Shown here one piece after another: positions 9,554-62,608 of a stretch of DNA of 64,000 nt. The stretch is taken from the NCBI RefSeq assembly GCF_007994985.1, contig NZ_VOQF01000006.1:248001-312000 (forward strand), in the 5' to 3' direction. Made by a program: the position numbers and the translations under genes. Source of the stretch: Metabacillus litoralis (lineage in GTDB: Bacteria; Bacillota; Bacilli; Bacillales; Bacillaceae). The notes under the pieces are model-generated. The model was not told where the DNA came from and made no database searches. It was given only the letters and a program-made list of their open reading frames with translations. The number at the start of each line of letters is the position of its first letter. Position 1 is the stretch's first letter.

Positions 9554-10021
9554 TTACTTTAATAATGTCCACACTTGTTCGTATACCTTCTTAAGGGGAA
9601 CTTTATATGTGTTGGCAATTGTTTTACATTCTTCAAATTCTGGAGCCCTTTGGATAACTTGTCCATTATATATTCCTTCTTTTACAGTTACAGGTCCCCA
9701 CTCAGTTTGAATCTGTCTGAATTGCCGTTCTGCTCTAAATACCGTTAATGGATAATATCTTATTCCTAGTGTTGTTGTTTCTTTAAGGAGTATATCTCTT
9801 ATCTGTTCAAGCTTATCCTGATGACATAATAGCTGCAGTAAAATTCCTGGTCTATTTTTTTTCATATAAATAGGAGTATAATAAACATCATTTGCACCTG
9901 ATTCAAAAAGTAAATCCATGACATAACCAAGCCATTCTCCCGAGATATCATCAAGATTCACTTCAACTTTCAGCATTTGATCATCAATATGTTCCTCATT
10001 TGGAGGAGGTTGTAAAACCAT
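9554..10021 (-). CDS. larC2: nickel-pincer cofactor biosynthesis protein LarC, C-terminal half
   Basis: 155 residues matching the C-terminal domain of LarC: VEVNLDDISGEWLGYVMDLL and YYTPIYMKKNRPG. LarC is a CTP-dependent cyclometallase that inserts nickel into the pyridinium dithio-mononucleotide. The ORF is in the -1 frame relative to the N-terminal half, but its own ribosome site GGAGAGGAG 8 nt before ATG 10021 is strong. In this frame a TAA lies 18 nt before the ATG, so it cannot be read simply as the frameshifted tail of the first ORF. Probably made as a separate subunit. Confidence 0.87.
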   Translation of the reverse strand: MVLQPPPNEEHIDDQMLKVEVNLDDISGEWLGYVMDLLFESGANDVYYTPIYMKKNRPGILLQLLCHQDKLEQIRDILLKETTTLGIRYYPLTVFRAERQFRQIQTEWGPVTVKEGIYNGQVIQRAPEFEECKTIANTYKVPLKKVYEQVWTLLK

Positions 10022-11890: not shown

Positions 11891-13363
11891 TTAAAAATGC
11901 TTTGCAATATCTCTTACTAATAATGCATATTTTTGATATATCTTTACATATATTTTATGATTATTCTCATTAGGTTTAATGGGAGAACCCATTGGTATAT
12001 TTTCTTTTATTTTTTCAAAGGAAGAAGCTTTATCAAGAGCAACTAATCCTGTCCATGCCGCCCCCCAGGCTGCACTATGGTGACTTTCTGAGACATACAC
12101 TTCTTTTCCAAATACATCAGCAAGCATCTGAAGCCATAAATCTGATCTAGACAACCCACCATTTACATAGATTTTATCAGGTGCTCCAGCTAGATTTTCT
12201 AAACTTTGCCCTATTTGATATAGATTAAATGTGATACCTTCTAAAACCGACCGAACGAAATGCTCTTTCTTATGAGTAACATTCATTCCGAAAAAATTAC
12301 CTCTTGCTTGTTGGTTCCATAGTGGTGCTCTTTCACCATTTATATATGGAAGGAAAATCAACCCTTCGGCACCTGGAGCTACTTTCTTCGCTTCTCCTGT
12401 AAACTCATCAAAGCTTCCGTGATCATTTAAAAGTTCCTTTAACCATTGTAAGGCAATTCCACCATTATTGGTTGGCCCACCTATAATAGAGTAATCCTTA
12501 GTAAAGGTATAACTAAAGGTTTCATGCTTGTCAGTTATTTTAAAGCCATTAGCAAATTGTCTAATTGCTCCACTCGTTCCAGCTGTAATGGCCACTTCTC
12601 CAGGTGAAATAGCTCCTATTCCTAGATTAGCTAATTGTCCGTCTGCAGCTCCTATGACAAATGGTAAATCAGATGATATTCCCATTTCATTCGCCACACC
12701 CTCATTTATGCCCGTTAAAACTTCAGTTGGCGGCACTACTACCGAAAGCTGCTCTTTTTTAATACCTGTTAGTTCCAGTAGCTCACCATCCCAGTCTAGT
12801 GTGTGGGCATTGAATAAGCCTGTAGCAGCAGCCATCGAGTAATCAACAACACGTTGATCAAACCATTTTAGAAGGATATATTCCTTAATCGATAAGAACA
12901 AATATGCATTAAGGTAAGGATCATAATTCTCCTCTTTCATCCATACTAACTTTGAAAGAGGTGACATAGGATGTAGAGGCACTCCCGTTTTCTTGAAAAT
13001 CTCCACTTTCTTTAGATGCTTTAACTTTTCTGCTTGTTCACTGCTTCTCCCATCTGCCCAAATAAGCGCATTTGATAATGGTTGATGATCCTCTCCTAAA
13101 CATATTAATGAATGCATAGCAGAAGAAAATGCAATAGTTAACAATTCGCTTCTTTGGATATTTGCTTTTTCTATAGAGTTACGTACTGCTTGGACGGCAA
13201 AACGTTCGATTTGATTTGGGTCTTGTTCTACCCAGCCTTGTTGAGGGTAAATGGAAGTAATCATTTCTTCTGATTCAGAGATTACATTTCCTTTCAAATC
13301 GAAAACTACTGCTTTTACACTTGTAGTTCCAAGATCAAGACCAATAACAAATTCTCTTGACAT
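11891..13363 (-). CDS. gntK: gluconokinase, FGGY family
   Basis: 490 residues. FGGY kinase with DLGTTSVKAVVFD at the N-terminus, FSSAMHS, WADGRS, PLHPMSPLSKLVW, IKEYI, VDYSMA, the catalytic-Asp region GAADGQLANLG, and NGGIALQW / ERAPLWN. These blocks line up closely with what I recall of Bacillus GntK, better than with xylulokinases. It phosphorylates D-gluconate to 6-phosphogluconate in the cytoplasm. It stands between the larE operon terminator and larB, with its own upstream region (13364-13596). No gluconate permease or gntR is adjacent, so its gluconate is probably made inside the cell from mannonate. Confidence 0.9.
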   Translation of the reverse strand: MSREFVIGLDLGTTSVKAVVFDLKGNVISESEEMITSIYPQQGWVEQDPNQIERFAVQAVRNSIEKANIQRSELLTIAFSSAMHSLICLGEDHQPLSNALIWADGRSSEQAEKLKHLKKVEIFKKTGVPLHPMSPLSKLVWMKEENYDPYLNAYLFLSIKEYILLKWFDQRVVDYSMAAATGLFNAHTLDWDGELLELTGIKKEQLSVVVPPTEVLTGINEGVANEMGISSDLPFVIGAADGQLANLGIGAISPGEVAITAGTSGAIRQFANGFKITDKHETFSYTFTKDYSIIGGPTNNGGIALQWLKELLNDHGSFDEFTGEAKKVAPGAEGLIFLPYINGERAPLWNQQARGNFFGMNVTHKKEHFVRSVLEGITFNLYQIGQSLENLAGAPDKIYVNGGLSRSDLWLQMLADVFGKEVYVSESHHSAAWGAAWTGLVALDKASSFEKIKENIPMGSPIKPNENNHKIYVKIYQKYALLVRDIAKHF

Positions 13364-56339: not shown

Positions 56340-57803
56340 TTAAAGTTTGATACAAATGTTTTTCAACTCGCTATAAAACTCAAAGCTGTGCATACCGCCT
56401 TCACGACCGATTCCACTTTGCTTCATACCACCAAATGGAGTTCGTAAATCTCTTAAGAACCAAGTATTAACCCAAATAATTCCAGCTTCTACTTCATTTG
56501 CCACTCTATGAGCTCTGCGAAGATCATTCGTCCAAATGGAAGCACTTAGTCCGTAATGAGAATCATTTACTTGAGCAATGACCTCATCCTCTAAATCAAA
56601 TGGAATCACAGTGACAACAGGTCCAAATATTTCTTCACGAACACATCTAGCATTTCGATCTAAGTCTGTAATGATCGTTGGCTCAATAAAATACCCTTTT
56701 TCTAGCCCTGAAGGACGACCTCCACCAATACGGATTGTTCCTCCTTCTTCCTTCGCAAGCTCAATATATCCTAAAACGCGCTCATAATGTTCTTTTCCAA
56801 TCATTGCACCAATTTTTGTTTTTTCATCAAATGGATCTCCAACAACAAGCTCTTTTGTTTTTGCTACAAACTTTTCAATAAACTCTTCATAAACTGGACG
56901 TTCAACATAAATTCTTGATCCACATAAACAAACCTCACCTTGATTGATAAAGCTAGACTTAATAGTTGTTTCTAGTACTTCATCAAGATCAGAATCAGCA
57001 AAGATGATATTTGGGTTTTTCCCGCCTAGTTCATATGAAAGCTTTTTAAGTGAATTTGCTGCTGCCTTCATGATCGCTGTACCAGTAGAGGTTTCACCGG
57101 TGAATGTAATCGCATCTACATCAGGATGTTCTGTTAAAGCTGATCCAGCAGAGTTAGGTCCAAAACCATGTACTACGTTTACAACACCATCTGGTACTCC
57201 AGCTTCTTTACAAATTTCCGCTAAAACGGTTGCCGTCATTGGTGTCCATTCAGCTGGTTTCAATACAGCAGTATTTCCTGCAGCTAAACACGGAGCAAGT
57301 TTCCACGTTAATAGAAGTAATGGGAGATTCCACGGATTGATTAACCCAACAACTCCTACTGGCTTACGTACTGAATAGTTGATGGCTATATCATCATGTT
57401 GATAAGCCTCAGTTCCCATTGTTGTCATGTAGTCAGCAAAGAAATGGAAGTTATAGGCTGCTCTCGGGATATCGATCGTACTTGATAACCAAATTGGTTT
57501 TCCTGTATCAAGAGATTCTAATCGCGCTAACTCATCTTTTCTTTCTAATATTAAATCTCCAATTTTACGTAATACTTTAGAACGTTCTGTTAAAGGCATT
57601 GTTTTCCATCGACCGTTTAGTGCTCTTCTAGCTGCAGATACAGCTAAGTTAATTTCCTCCTCCCCACCTTCAGCTACAGATCCTACTATCTCTTCATTTG
57701 CTGGATTCGTATTTATAAATGTTTTGTTATTCATAGAATCCATGTATTGCCCATTAATAAAATGTCTACAATCAATTCCTGTTGCTGTAGTAATCGCTTC
57801 CAT
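56340..57803 (-). CDS. praB: 2-hydroxymuconic semialdehyde dehydrogenase
   Basis: 487 residues, ALDH superfamily. FINGQYMDSMNNKTFINTNP, GLINPWNLPLLLLTWK, FTGETSTGTAI, ELGGKNPNIIFADSD, catalytic Cys in GEVCLCGSR, and EIFGPVVTVIPF are of the HMSDH branch. Start ATG 57803 has GGAGGA 6 nt upstream; ATG 57809 abuts that site. First gene of praBEGFDCA, controlled from the region shared with the IclR gene. Its 5' end and promoter have a decayed copy at 61135-61355. Confidence 0.92.
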   Translation of the reverse strand: MEAITTATGIDCRHFINGQYMDSMNNKTFINTNPANEEIVGSVAEGGEEEINLAVSAARRALNGRWKTMPLTERSKVLRKIGDLILERKDELARLESLDTGKPIWLSSTIDIPRAAYNFHFFADYMTTMGTEAYQHDDIAINYSVRKPVGVVGLINPWNLPLLLLTWKLAPCLAAGNTAVLKPAEWTPMTATVLAEICKEAGVPDGVVNVVHGFGPNSAGSALTEHPDVDAITFTGETSTGTAIMKAAANSLKKLSYELGGKNPNIIFADSDLDEVLETTIKSSFINQGEVCLCGSRIYVERPVYEEFIEKFVAKTKELVVGDPFDEKTKIGAMIGKEHYERVLGYIELAKEEGGTIRIGGGRPSGLEKGYFIEPTIITDLDRNARCVREEIFGPVVTVIPFDLEDEVIAQVNDSHYGLSASIWTNDLRRAHRVANEVEAGIIWVNTWFLRDLRTPFGGMKQSGIGREGGMHSFEFYSELKNICIKL

Positions 57804-57891
57804 AACCATTCCTCCATTACATAAAATGTTTTCATTTCTTTGTAATGTTAGAATAGTACAAAATCGTCCCTTATAAAACATCAATGTTCTT

Positions 57892-57904
57892 ATATATGGA
57901 ACGA
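57892..57904 (+). promoter_or_regulatory. putative IclR operator, praB side
   Basis: ATATATGGAACGA, about 90 bp upstream of praB. Same motif at 61280-61292 (ATATATGGAACAA) and, inverted, at 57988-57999. Confidence 0.5.
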
Positions 57905-57980
57905 ATTGAAGTTTTTTAAAAAATATTTTGATTATTCTCTTTATTCACTCTATGTGATATAGTGAAAGAAAACCTCATAA

Positions 57981-57999
57981 AGGAATATCGTTCCTCTAT
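57981..57999 (-). promoter_or_regulatory. putative IclR operator, regulator side
   Basis: AGGAA-TATCG-TTCCT palindrome at 57981-57995; the minus strand reads ATAGAGGAACGA, matching the 57892 motif in opposite orientation, 25 bp before the iclR-type start. Confidence 0.55.
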
Positions 58000-58023
58000 G
58001 AACAACAGATTGGAGAGTAAACA

Positions 58024-58809
58024 ATGACGGAAACGACTAAAAAAGATTACACACTTTCATCTGTAAAAAATGCACTTCGTATCTTACGAAAATTTACAAT
58101 GGATCAACCTGAACTAAAAATTACTGAGCTTGCTCGAGAGTTAGACCTTGGTAAAAGTACAGTGAGCAGACTGATGTCAACATTAGCAAGTGAGGGCTTT
58201 GTTGAAAAAGATCCAGAAACACAGCGTTATCGATTAGGTTTATCTATCCTTTCACTTGCAAGTGTTTGTACATCAACTTTTGAGATTCATAAGGAAGCCA
58301 TGCCAGTTTTACATGAACTTGTTGAAAAAACAGGTGAAACTGCTCACCTAGCAATTCTTGATGGCTTAGATGTCATTTACTTACACAAGGTCGAAAGTAA
58401 GCACCATGTACGTGCTTTCACCCATATCGGTAAAAGAAATCCCGCCTATGCAACGAGCTCTGGAAAGGTGCTTTTAGCTTTTAACAATGAACAAAGAGTA
58501 GAAAAAACGATTGAAAACGGATTAGAGCCATTTACACAACATACCATTACAGATCAGAAAACATTAATGGAAACCCTTACAAATATTCGCAAACAAGGTT
58601 ATGCCGTAAGTACGGAAGAAATATCTGAAGGTGTTGTCTCAATTGCTGCTCCAGTAAAAGACTACACAGGACAAGTCATTGCCGCTGTTAATATCGTTGG
58701 ACCTATTCAACGAGTAAACGATCAAACAATTCCATCACATATTAAGAGAGTTGTAGAAGCAGGTAAAGAAATTTCTAGACGTTTAGGTTATCGATTTAAT
58801 CATTATTAA
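58024..58809 (+). CDS. IclR-family transcriptional regulator of the pra cluster
   Basis: 261 residues. N-terminal HTH (LKITELARELDLGKSTVSRLMSTLA) and IclR effector domain (DGLDVIYLHKVES, TSSGKVLLAF, STEEISEGVVSIAAPVKD). PcaR/PobR-type IclR proteins govern aromatic degradation. Divergent from praB and co-directional with praH (23-nt gap). TTGGAGAG precedes ATG 58024. Ligand probably 4-hydroxybenzoate or protocatechuate (inference). Confidence 0.9.
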   Translation: MTETTKKDYTLSSVKNALRILRKFTMDQPELKITELARELDLGKSTVSRLMSTLASEGFVEKDPETQRYRLGLSILSLASVCTSTFEIHKEAMPVLHELVEKTGETAHLAILDGLDVIYLHKVESKHHVRAFTHIGKRNPAYATSSGKVLLAFNNEQRVEKTIENGLEPFTQHTITDQKTLMETLTNIRKQGYAVSTEEISEGVVSIAAPVKDYTGQVIAAVNIVGPIQRVNDQTIPSHIKRVVEAGKEISRRLGYRFNHY

Positions 58810-58832: not shown

Positions 58833-59774
58833 ATGCATGATTTTCACACTCATTTTATTCCCGAAGAAGTCGTTGATTGGATAAAAGACCAAAGAAACAT
58901 CATTAATGCAAGCTGGGAGAAAAAAAGTCAAGATAAAGAAGAATTTTTATCTATTAACAACAAGTGGGTATTTGAACTAAAACAAGAATTCACTAATAAA
59001 TCTTTATATCTAACAGAACAACAAAACATTGGTGTGGATCATTCAGTTGTTTCACCGATTCCTCAGCTATTTTTATATGATTTCCCTTCAGAGATTACAA
59101 GAGAATTAGTAGCTGTTTACAACACATCACTTGCAAAATGGTCACAAGTCCAATCACAAAAAATATCAGCACTTGCCACCGTTTCTCTTAATCACCCTGA
59201 AACTGCTGCACAAGACTTAAGAGATGCAATGAATATGGGATTAAAAGGTGCCATTATTGGACCTGGATTAAACGGTAAATTATTATCAGACAACTCTTTC
59301 ACTCCTTTTTGGGAAGAAGCGAATAAGCAAAAAGCGATCATGTTCATCCATCCTTTATTATGTGAAGATCAACGTTTAAACCAGCGCATGATGCCAAACT
59401 TAATTGGTGTACCTTGGGAAACAACGATTACAGCTACAGATCTCTTACTAAGTGGCCTATTAGATACATACAACAATGTAAAAATTCTCTTGGCACATGG
59501 TGGAGGATTCCTTCCTTATCAAATCGGTCGTTTGAACAAAGGCTTTGAAATGTGGCCACTCGTTTCAAAGAACTTGCAAAAAGAGCCGATCGAGTACTTA
59601 AAAGACTTTTGGTATGATAGCGTCTTATGGAATCCAACTACACTTGACTACTTAGCTAAAACTGTTGGAAAAGAAAGAATTGTTCCAGGGTCCGATTTTC
59701 CATTTGACCTTTGTGAATGGCCACCAGCAAAGCAACTGGCCAAAGGCTCGGAATCTTTACTTCAATCTATCTAG
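58833..59774 (+). CDS. praH: amidohydrolase-type decarboxylase, probable 5-carboxy-2-hydroxymuconate-6-semialdehyde decarboxylase
   Basis: 313 residues of the ACMSD-like amidohydrolase family: metal-binding HDFHTHFIPEEV at the N-terminus, SPIPQLFLYD, GLKGAIIGPGLNG, MFIHPLLC, ILLAHGGGFLPYQ and VPGSDFPFDLCEW. This family removes the ring-derived carboxylate from semialdehydes; here it would convert the protocatechuate 2,3-cleavage product to 2-hydroxymuconic semialdehyde for PraB. AAAAGGAG precedes ATG 58833. Confidence 0.83.
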   Translation: MHDFHTHFIPEEVVDWIKDQRNIINASWEKKSQDKEEFLSINNKWVFELKQEFTNKSLYLTEQQNIGVDHSVVSPIPQLFLYDFPSEITRELVAVYNTSLAKWSQVQSQKISALATVSLNHPETAAQDLRDAMNMGLKGAIIGPGLNGKLLSDNSFTPFWEEANKQKAIMFIHPLLCEDQRLNQRMMPNLIGVPWETTITATDLLLSGLLDTYNNVKILLAHGGGFLPYQIGRLNKGFEMWPLVSKNLQKEPIEYLKDFWYDSVLWNPTTLDYLAKTVGKERIVPGSDFPFDLCEWPPAKQLAKGSESLLQSI

Positions 59775-59851: not shown

Positions 59852-61078
<1,227 letters not shown>

Positions 61079-61134
61079 TCAAAATATTTTTTATATAGAA
61101 ACTTCTTATTCTAAAAGAGTCCCAATTCTACAAA

Positions 61135-61355
61135 AATATTACTTTAGAACGTTCTGTTAAAGTCTTTGATTTCCAACACCCTTATAAAAGTAACCGCTTC
61201 CATTCCTCATCATGTTTAATTCATTCTCTGTATATATAACATAGTATAAAATTGATCCTTATAAAACACGACTTTTCCTATATATGGAACAATATGATGA
61301 TTTTTCAAATATCTTTTTAGAGCTCTATGAAATATCGAGAAAATAAACCTCAAAA
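61135..61355 (-). pseudogene. decayed duplicate of praB 5' end and promoter
   Basis: ACTTTAGAACGTTCTGTTAA (61141 on) is identical to praB codons at 57574 on; further upstream ATGGAAGCGGTTAC (minus, start codon at about 61203) mirrors the praB start ATGGAAGCGATTAC; then the promoter stretches 61237-61298 and 57851-57912 align (TTATAAAACA, TATATATGGAAC, ATAGTA-AAAAT blocks). About 160 nt of 5' coding sequence between these blocks has been lost. No reading frame survives. Confidence 0.8.
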
Positions 61356-61360
61356 AAAGA

Positions 61361-62608
61361 TTACATCGTTAAATCTATATCTTTAGACTGCTGTATTTTA
61401 ATAGGTGCTGTTTCTTTAATTCCAAAAGTACATATAAACGCAATAAAAGCGGCAATTGCCGTAATCCATAACGGTGCAGTTAAGCTATATTTATCAGCTA
61501 ATACCCCTGCCATCATCGGACCAGCAAATCCTCCAATAATTTCCCCTGTTAAAATAACGAAACTTATCGCAGTAGCAGTAAATCTGCGAGATACAGATTC
61601 AGCTGGCACAATATTCATCACAAGTGGTTGATATCCATTACCAATCGAGAGGATAATCATTGAGATAATTAAAACAACAAAGTTTTGATAATATAATGCG
61701 ATCATGATTGGAAGGAAAATGGCAATAAATGAAAAGATTTTAAGAATAGGTAGTCTTCCTATACGGTCAGAAAGTGCAGGTGCTCCCATTTGCCCAACAA
61801 ACATCATGAGCCCCATAGCTCCAAGCAGCATGCCAATCTGAGCATCTTTATAGTTTGTTGAGTTCGCTAACATCGTTGGAAGAAAAGCGGTAAGAGTCAG
61901 GATGAAGACCATATTACAAGTCCCGATAATTGTGCATAGCCAAACGTTTCTTGTTTTAAATACTTTAAGATAATCTGCTTTCGTTGGTTTTACCAATTGT
62001 TGCTCCTCGTCTTGTTCAACAACAAGTTTGGGTTCTCTTAAATACTTCCATAAGATAAGACCAACGATGATCCCAGGAATGGCGATGATATAAAATGCTG
62101 ATCTCCAGCCTAAGGCTACTGCTAGGGAAACGGTCAAAACTGGTGCCATTGCACCTCCAATTAAAGAGGAAGCGCTTTGGATGACACCCATATTAAATCC
62201 CCTTCTTTTCTCAGAGGACTCCGCCATGACAATCGATTGAACTAACGGCATGACGGGCCCTTCAGCTAATCCCATGATGATTCTCGTCATAATTAAAGCA
62301 AAAAACGAACCGACAAGTCCGGTTAGTAAGGTAGCAATTGAAAAAACAAAAACAAAGATAACGAGCATTACCTTCTTTTTCCCTATAAAATCGGAAAGAC
62401 TAGCGAAGATTAACGTAGAGATTCCAAAGAATAAACTTGTAATCCCAACTGTTAAACCAAGCTGTGTATTTGATAGATTTAAATCCGGTCCCATGATAGG
62501 AAAAACAAACCCTAAACTTAATCGATCTAAAAACACAAGCCCGACAACGAAAAACATAATGATGACAAGGAAATTCTCATAACGTTTGCTTTTGCTTAAT
62601 TCATTCAT
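61361..62608 (-). CDS. MFS transporter, aromatic acid:H+ symporter-like
   Basis: 415 residues, twelve predicted membrane spans. MFS motifs FLDRLSLGFVFP, SLSDFIGKKKVML (loop 2-3), RIIMGLAEGPVMPL and ALSDRIGRLPILK (loop 8-9). Likely imports 4-hydroxybenzoate, protocatechuate or the substrate of the adjacent flavin hydroxylase. Shares the strand with the monooxygenase gene upstream (58-nt gap), so probably co-transcribed. Confidence 0.88.
   Translation of the reverse strand: MNELSKSKRYENFLVIIMFFVVGLVFLDRLSLGFVFPIMGPDLNLSNTQLGLTVGITSLFFGISTLIFASLSDFIGKKKVMLVIFVFVFSIATLLTGLVGSFFALIMTRIIMGLAEGPVMPLVQSIVMAESSEKRRGFNMGVIQSASSLIGGAMAPVLTVSLAVALGWRSAFYIIAIPGIIVGLILWKYLREPKLVVEQDEEQQLVKPTKADYLKVFKTRNVWLCTIIGTCNMVFILTLTAFLPTMLANSTNYKDAQIGMLLGAMGLMMFVGQMGAPALSDRIGRLPILKIFSFIAIFLPIMIALYYQNFVVLIISMIILSIGNGYQPLVMNIVPAESVSRRFTATAISFVILTGEIIGGFAGPMMAGVLADKYSLTAPLWITAIAAFIAFICTFGIKETAPIKIQQSKDIDLTM

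Follow-up and report, generated by a model that had tools for sequence, protein, structure and literature searches.

Promoter capture is familiar from selections carried out in the laboratory; natural cases are, to our knowledge, rarely legible, because the donor and the joint decay. The rnk-citT capture in E. coli (2012) reportedly followed a tandem-duplication route. Promoter capture by deletion or tandem duplication has also been described for Salmonella his and, in E. coli and B. subtilis, as a means by which transferred genes were activated (PMC11111574). In Paenibacillus sp. JJ-1b, the genes of the pra cluster are arranged as praRABEGFDCHI, with the hydroxylase gene praI closing the operon (PMC12455638). 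The locus described here, located in a 64,000-nt stretch of Metabacillus litoralis DNA (the window), resembles the JJ-1b cluster in its protocatechuate 2,3-cleavage genes, PraR, and 4-hydroxybenzoate hydroxylase (PMC12455638), but the Metabacillus hydroxylase gene pobA forms a separate unit, probably with a promoter derived from praB, instead of being the last gene of the operon. In comparison with the PobR–pobA pair of Acinetobacter, the divergent regulator is missing and a relic of praB is found in its place. We interpret this relic as a captured copy of the praB promoter that now serves pobA, arising from a partial duplication followed by decay of the coding part and retention of the promoter, with pobA expected to be under PraR control (probability, about 0.8); the duplication itself is nearly certain. 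Thus interpreted, the case is a natural promoter capture, of a kind known in principle.

Gene neighborhood and the praB relic

The pra gene names are used by analogy with the Paenibacillus set. The protocatechuate meta-cleavage set found in this region comprises a LigB-type dioxygenase, a tautomerase-sized protein, two FAA-hydrolase-type enzymes, 4-hydroxy-2-oxovalerate aldolase, acetaldehyde dehydrogenase, the praB-type dehydrogenase, PraR, an amidohydrolase, and PobA. The pra gene set for protocatechuate 2,3-cleavage lies together, hydratase included, the tautomerase being assigned by size and cluster conservation only, and ring cleavage at the 2,3 position is predicted from this gene set. 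The genes nearest to the relic are as follows.

56340–57803, minus strand: praB, intact hydroxymuconic semialdehyde dehydrogenase gene and source of the relic (TIGR03216, E 1e-204, slightly under the cut-off; Pfam Aldedh)
58024–58809, plus strand: praR, IclR-family regulator gene (Pfam IclR_C, E 2e-52; PcaR/PcaU/PobR subfamily model sub-threshold)
58833–59774, plus strand: amidohydrolase gene, by context likely the pathway decarboxylase (praH-like) (Pfam Amidohydro_2, E 2e-20)
59852–61057, minus strand: pobA, 4-hydroxybenzoate 3-monooxygenase gene, equivalent of praI (NCBIfam NF006091, E 5e-179)
61361–62608, minus strand: MFS transporter gene upstream of the relic (Pfam MFS_1)

The 303-bp gap between pobA and the MFS gene was aligned with the 5′ part of praB and the praB–praR intergenic region (local alignment of 61058–61360 against 57550–58023), which revealed two collinear blocks. 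The gap is thus divided as follows.

61058–61121, minus strand: remaining pobA leader with the ribosome site, holding the right breakpoint
61122–61182, minus strand: coding block, relic of praB codons ~63–82 (matches 57559–57615; 23/23 identical core; 0/500 shuffles)
61189–61357, minus strand: promoter block, relic of the praB start region and the praB–praR promoter region, now the probable pobA promoter (matches 57789–57982; 0/500 shuffles, z 16–21)
61202–61204, minus strand: dead praB start codon (ATGGAAGCG), from relics aligned across four species
61352–61361, strand not applicable: left breakpoint, just past the MFS stop codon

The promoter block holds the start codon, the leader, and nearly the whole divergent promoter region of praB, with an ungapped 94-bp core (57836–57929 and 61224–61317) of 74% identity. 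None of 500 dinucleotide shuffles reached the observed score for the whole region (z ranging from 14 to 21 over four tests), and the same 0/500 was obtained for the promoter block alone, for the coding block alone, and for the region without its 22-bp block, so that shuffled AT-rich DNA falls far short of the match even when that block is left out. The first-pass annotation had described a piecewise alignment to the codons, start region, and promoter of praB with loss of the coding middle, and both statements hold: ~165 bp of praB coding sequence is gone between the two blocks and the reading frame is destroyed, the coding block being out of frame with the relic start codon. It had also located the feature correctly, but its limits of 61135–61355 are replaced by about 61122–61360. 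A genome search found no third copy of the relic sequence.

These coding remains bear on whether any duplication is needed. Selection could have given both promoters PraR sites and a similar A+T-rich make-up by convergence, and outgroup pobA promoters do bear GTTCC-type operators as well; this explanation is nevertheless refuted by the praB coding blocks, as praB coding sequence and a praB start codon sit in a noncoding place, and the relic promoter is much nearer to the praB promoter of the window (z 14) than to the outgroup pobA/IclR promoters (z 1.5–6.7). We regard it as extremely improbable.

The start of pobA is at 61057, behind a conserved AAAGGAGC ribosome site, so that neither refuting condition named in the first-pass annotation applies. 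The segment 61058–61121 resembles neither praB codons nor other pobA leaders at a significant level, and the folding energy of the pobA leader is within the range of shuffles (−24.9 versus −26.1 ± 3.3), therefore giving no attenuator signal. In the relic, the start codon of praB is kept, but its ribosome site has degenerated. Translation of a short conserved leader peptide from this codon was considered and rejected, because of the damage to that site and because the frames stop early (after 5, 5, 15, or 19 codons). The coding block with the 23-bp core showed no special conservation (55/61 between species, not above pobA four-fold sites, p 0.5) and is lost in one relative (G012).

Relics in other Metabacillus genomes

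Among 21 Metabacillus genomes searched, with relatives including M. halosaccharovorans and Bacillus sp. J37, pobA is intact in four, and it is preceded by the praB relic in every one of these. The relic is found in five genomes (G000, G005, G014, G012, and G007, the last with a broken pobA), and the remains of a dead praB 5′ end, whose promoter survives and faces pobA as first proposed from the window, are thereby seen directly. The identical middle section of praB is missing in G000, G005, and G014, whereas the G012 relic has kept praB codons ~3–26 in place of the later block. The G012 fragment was matched by 0–1/500 shuffles against the praB genes of L009 and L008 but by 104/500 against the praB of the window, and its reading is therefore based on the L008/L009 comparison and on the collinear register. 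Since different fragments are left in different species, the ancestral praB copy would have been longer than the relic of today, with at least ~80 codons. In the relic region of G012 (L007), a putative lipoprotein gene, with a metallo-beta-lactamase-like fold by eye, is inserted between the MFS gene and the captured promoter.

In G007 (L123, G007:C16:28000-45500, near 12939–12950), a ~10-kb deletion joining the positions of window ~50567 and 60551 has removed the pra cluster entirely, along with the 3′ part of pobA, while the relic and the pobA start are kept. PraR is absent from the G007 genome, and the operator there carries a further mismatch (GGTAA).

In a phylogenetic tree, the relics form one clade (98% support) that joins the Metabacillus praB promoters, apart from those of other genera at 85%; the relics share a mean identity of 0.69 with Metabacillus praB promoters, against 0.58 with those of the alkaliphiles. 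The duplication is accordingly older than these Metabacillus species and younger than their split from the alkaliphiles. Both this tree and the independently decayed fragments in different species back the duplication and decay that had been suggested.

Promoter architecture of praB and pobA

The promoter elements shared by praB and the relic, and the additional site near praR, are as follows.

57886–57902, minus strand: praB operator GTTCCATATATAAGAAC, 17-bp inverted repeat conserved in all praB promoters examined
57990–58006, minus strand: second, praR-proximal operator-like site (GTTGTTCATAGAGGAAC), with equivalents in L010, L011, L012, and L016
61274–61290, minus strand: IclR-type operator GTTCCATATATAGGAAA, putative PraR site of pobA, aligned with the praB operator at 57886–57902 and at the same position in all relics
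61261–61267, minus strand: GTTTTAT box kept from the praB promoter, 6 nt after the operator
61238–61243, minus strand: putative −10 hexamer TATGTT, 30 nt after the operator (TATGCT in three relatives)

All praB promoters examined contain a 17-bp inverted repeat of the form GTTNC-N7-GNAAC or near it. The GGAAC operator motif reported by the first-pass annotation is present but makes up merely one half of the repeat at 61274–61290. Compared with the pattern GTTYC-N7-GRAAC, the praB sites have imperfect arms (GTTCC...AGAAC in the window), and the pobA site (GTTCC...GGAAA) is off by one end base, the change of the arm end from GAAC to GAAA being found in all four species with intact pobA. These 17-bp repeats resemble the GTT-11-AAC class of IclR operators, which is over-represented in Firmicutes (PMC8222616). 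The captured promoter is oriented on the minus strand toward pobA, with operator, box, −10 hexamer, and spacing kept: the GTTTTAT box lies 6 nt past the operator in 9/9 Metabacillus and alkaliphile praB promoters and in 4/5 relics, and the spacing from operator to −10 is exactly 30 nt in 9/9 praB promoters of this group and 4/5 relics, the G012 relic being one base shorter (29 nt). The second operator copy near praR, found in Metabacillus and the alkaliphiles, is not kept in the relic. A terminator-like hairpin of 12 pairs (window 57974–58002, minus strand) overlaps this praR-proximal site.

As the neighboring IclR regulator, PraR is expected to bind 61274–61290 and would control pobA together with the pra operon, with transcription of pobA presumably starting near 61230 from the captured promoter. 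A consensus promoter scan made no call at either the pobA or the praB promoter, and the −35 match is weak; the operator centre at ~50 nt upstream of the expected start, together with the poor −35, would suit activation by PraR, for which the activators PobR and PcaU of Acinetobacter provide the parallel. Taken by itself, the operator motif lacks genome-wide specificity (23 matches at one mismatch versus 17 for the control, with an 18-letter pattern for a 17-bp site, usable only with one mismatch), and a wider PraR regulon based on this search was dropped for that reason.

When the window is compared with L008, 54/58 positions of the promoter core and 198/227 of the other relic parts are identical, against 134/157 four-fold sites in pobA and 164/214 in praB. 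The core is thus the best-conserved part of the relic (p 0.005 against praB four-fold sites), with a slight excess over pobA four-fold sites that is not significant (p 0.17) because so few species are available. The stronger argument for selection is the kept architecture beside coding parts that were lost separately. The same evidence weighs against the relic being inert debris with a leftover operator, with pobA transcribed from another promoter in 61058–61130 or by read-through from the MFS operon. Such a view could draw on the pobA leader, which evolves like pobA four-fold sites, and on a 9/12 sigma-70-like match at 61133–61160; but this is the single such match in the region, below the shuffle mean of 2.2, and G012 lacks the block containing it; moreover, the operator, the GTTTTAT box, the −10, and their spacing persist across species, whereas the context of the start codon, the ribosome site, and the coding parts disappeared separately. 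We therefore consider inert debris unlikely.

Probable ancestral gene order and origin of the arrangement

In Alkalihalobacillus, Halalkalibacter, Alkalihalophilus, and Halalkalibacterium (L010, L011, L012, and L016), and likewise in a more distant genome (L111), the gene order is IclR gene(s), pobA, amidohydrolase, and praR. With L103 and L105–L107, which also carry an IclR gene divergent from pobA, nine outgroup loci have this divergent regulator and no praB relic, a layout matched by the divergent PobR–pobA pair of Acinetobacter (PMC12455638, PMC8222616). The copies at L010 and the copy at L012 were confirmed as IclR proteins. Two tandem IclR genes diverge from pobA at L010 (8316–9041 and 9111–9842), and likewise at L011, L012, L016, L105–L107, and L111. 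When the outgroup regulator is sought in the four Metabacillus genomes with pobA, its best match is PraR itself (50%), the next reaching ≤32%, and these genomes thus have no orthologue of the dedicated regulator. As the gene order of the alkaliphiles is kept and the local regulator is absent, Metabacillus would most simply have lost the regulator upon capture of the praB promoter, the direction of the swap being judged from synteny. The regulatory rewiring first suggested for the window is supported by these outgroups, and the first-pass annotation was correct on what is present and probably also on its meaning.

A different history, in which no regulator was swapped in Metabacillus, would make the relic the remnant of a full second praB in a former praB2-(ligB)-pobA operon; a promoter of the praB type would then have served pobA all along, the deletion of praB2 having merely shortened the leader. 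Precedents exist, since pobA lies downstream inside the pra operon in many other Bacillales, and Oceanobacillus (L020/L021) has two praB genes within 10 kb, one before ligB-pobA and the other heading the remaining pra operon. The relic is, however, closest to Metabacillus praB (the mean identity of 0.69 given above) and far from Oceanobacillus praB (about 0.5), no praB sequence past about codon 85 was found in the relics, and the lineages sharing the pobA-amidohydrolase-praR-praB order have a divergent IclR gene at pobA with no upstream praB. This history thus appears improbable in comparison with promoter capture.

For the capture itself, we propose that a partial duplication in an ancestor of the Metabacillus subgroup fused the praB promoter, together with the start and no fewer than ~80 codons, to the sequence immediately preceding pobA. 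In its simplest form, this would be a tandem duplication of pobA-amidohydrolase-praR-praB5′, whose novel joint would be exactly praB5′/pobA in one step; the relic and the praB 5′ end are indeed direct repeats flanking pobA-amidohydrolase-praR. A subsequent deletion, reaching from the MFS stop codon to the praR–praB region of the first copy, would have eliminated the redundant copy and, with it, the dedicated divergent IclR gene(s), so that the relic came to lie directly against the MFS stop codon. Decay of the praB coding part would then have proceeded separately in different species, while operator, GTTTTAT box, −10, and spacing stayed. No first-copy remains of pobA, amidohydrolase, or praR were found between the MFS stop and the relic, which fits a deletion but does not prove it, and we put the tandem-duplication route at about even odds.

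The left breakpoint is placed with the aid of G003, in which the MFS gene and an FAD-monooxygenase neighbor are present without a pra cluster and DNA similarity to the window ends at 61352. The motif AACGAT, common to the MFS end and the praR–praB region, lies on both sides of this breakpoint as possible microhomology; the right breakpoint lies somewhere within 61058–61121. In G003 (L124, about 9974–10020), a ligase-like gene (by eye) comes after the MFS gene, and its own GTTCTATATAGGGGAAC operator lies immediately past the MFS stop; another IclR-type regulon seems to occupy this spot.

As in Metabacillus, the rearrangement at rnk-citT in E. coli placed one gene behind the promoter region of a different one (PMC7299349, PMC11111574), and the general description of promoter capture in PMC11111574 fits the tandem-duplication route. 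Unlike rnk-citT, the Metabacillus capture is natural, old, and conserved in several species, with the duplicate mostly deleted; its donor is a regulated catabolic promoter next door, and the dedicated regulator has apparently been lost. In the laboratory cases, too, a promoter became illegitimately fused to a downstream gene, but these were selections for expression (PMC11111574), whereas the promoter captured in Metabacillus would bring pathway-specific regulation. More tentatively, the capture may also have changed the signal, in that pobA, once induced by 4-hydroxybenzoate via a PobR-like IclR protein, would now respond to the signal of PraR, perhaps the product protocatechuate; this is a possibility that we hold with less than even confidence. 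If it is true, Metabacillus would offer a natural before-and-after pair for the replacement of a regulator by a promoter duplication that alters the logic of a pathway, and G007 would represent the relic after the death of the regulon. This branch of soil bacteria may thus preserve a fossil of a gene passing from one regulator to another, with the donor promoter, the relic, the ancestral regulator layout, the independent decay, and one dead-regulon lineage all readable in a short piece of DNA. Because all these stages are visible, one could test directly what changes when a pathway regulator takes the place of a dedicated one.
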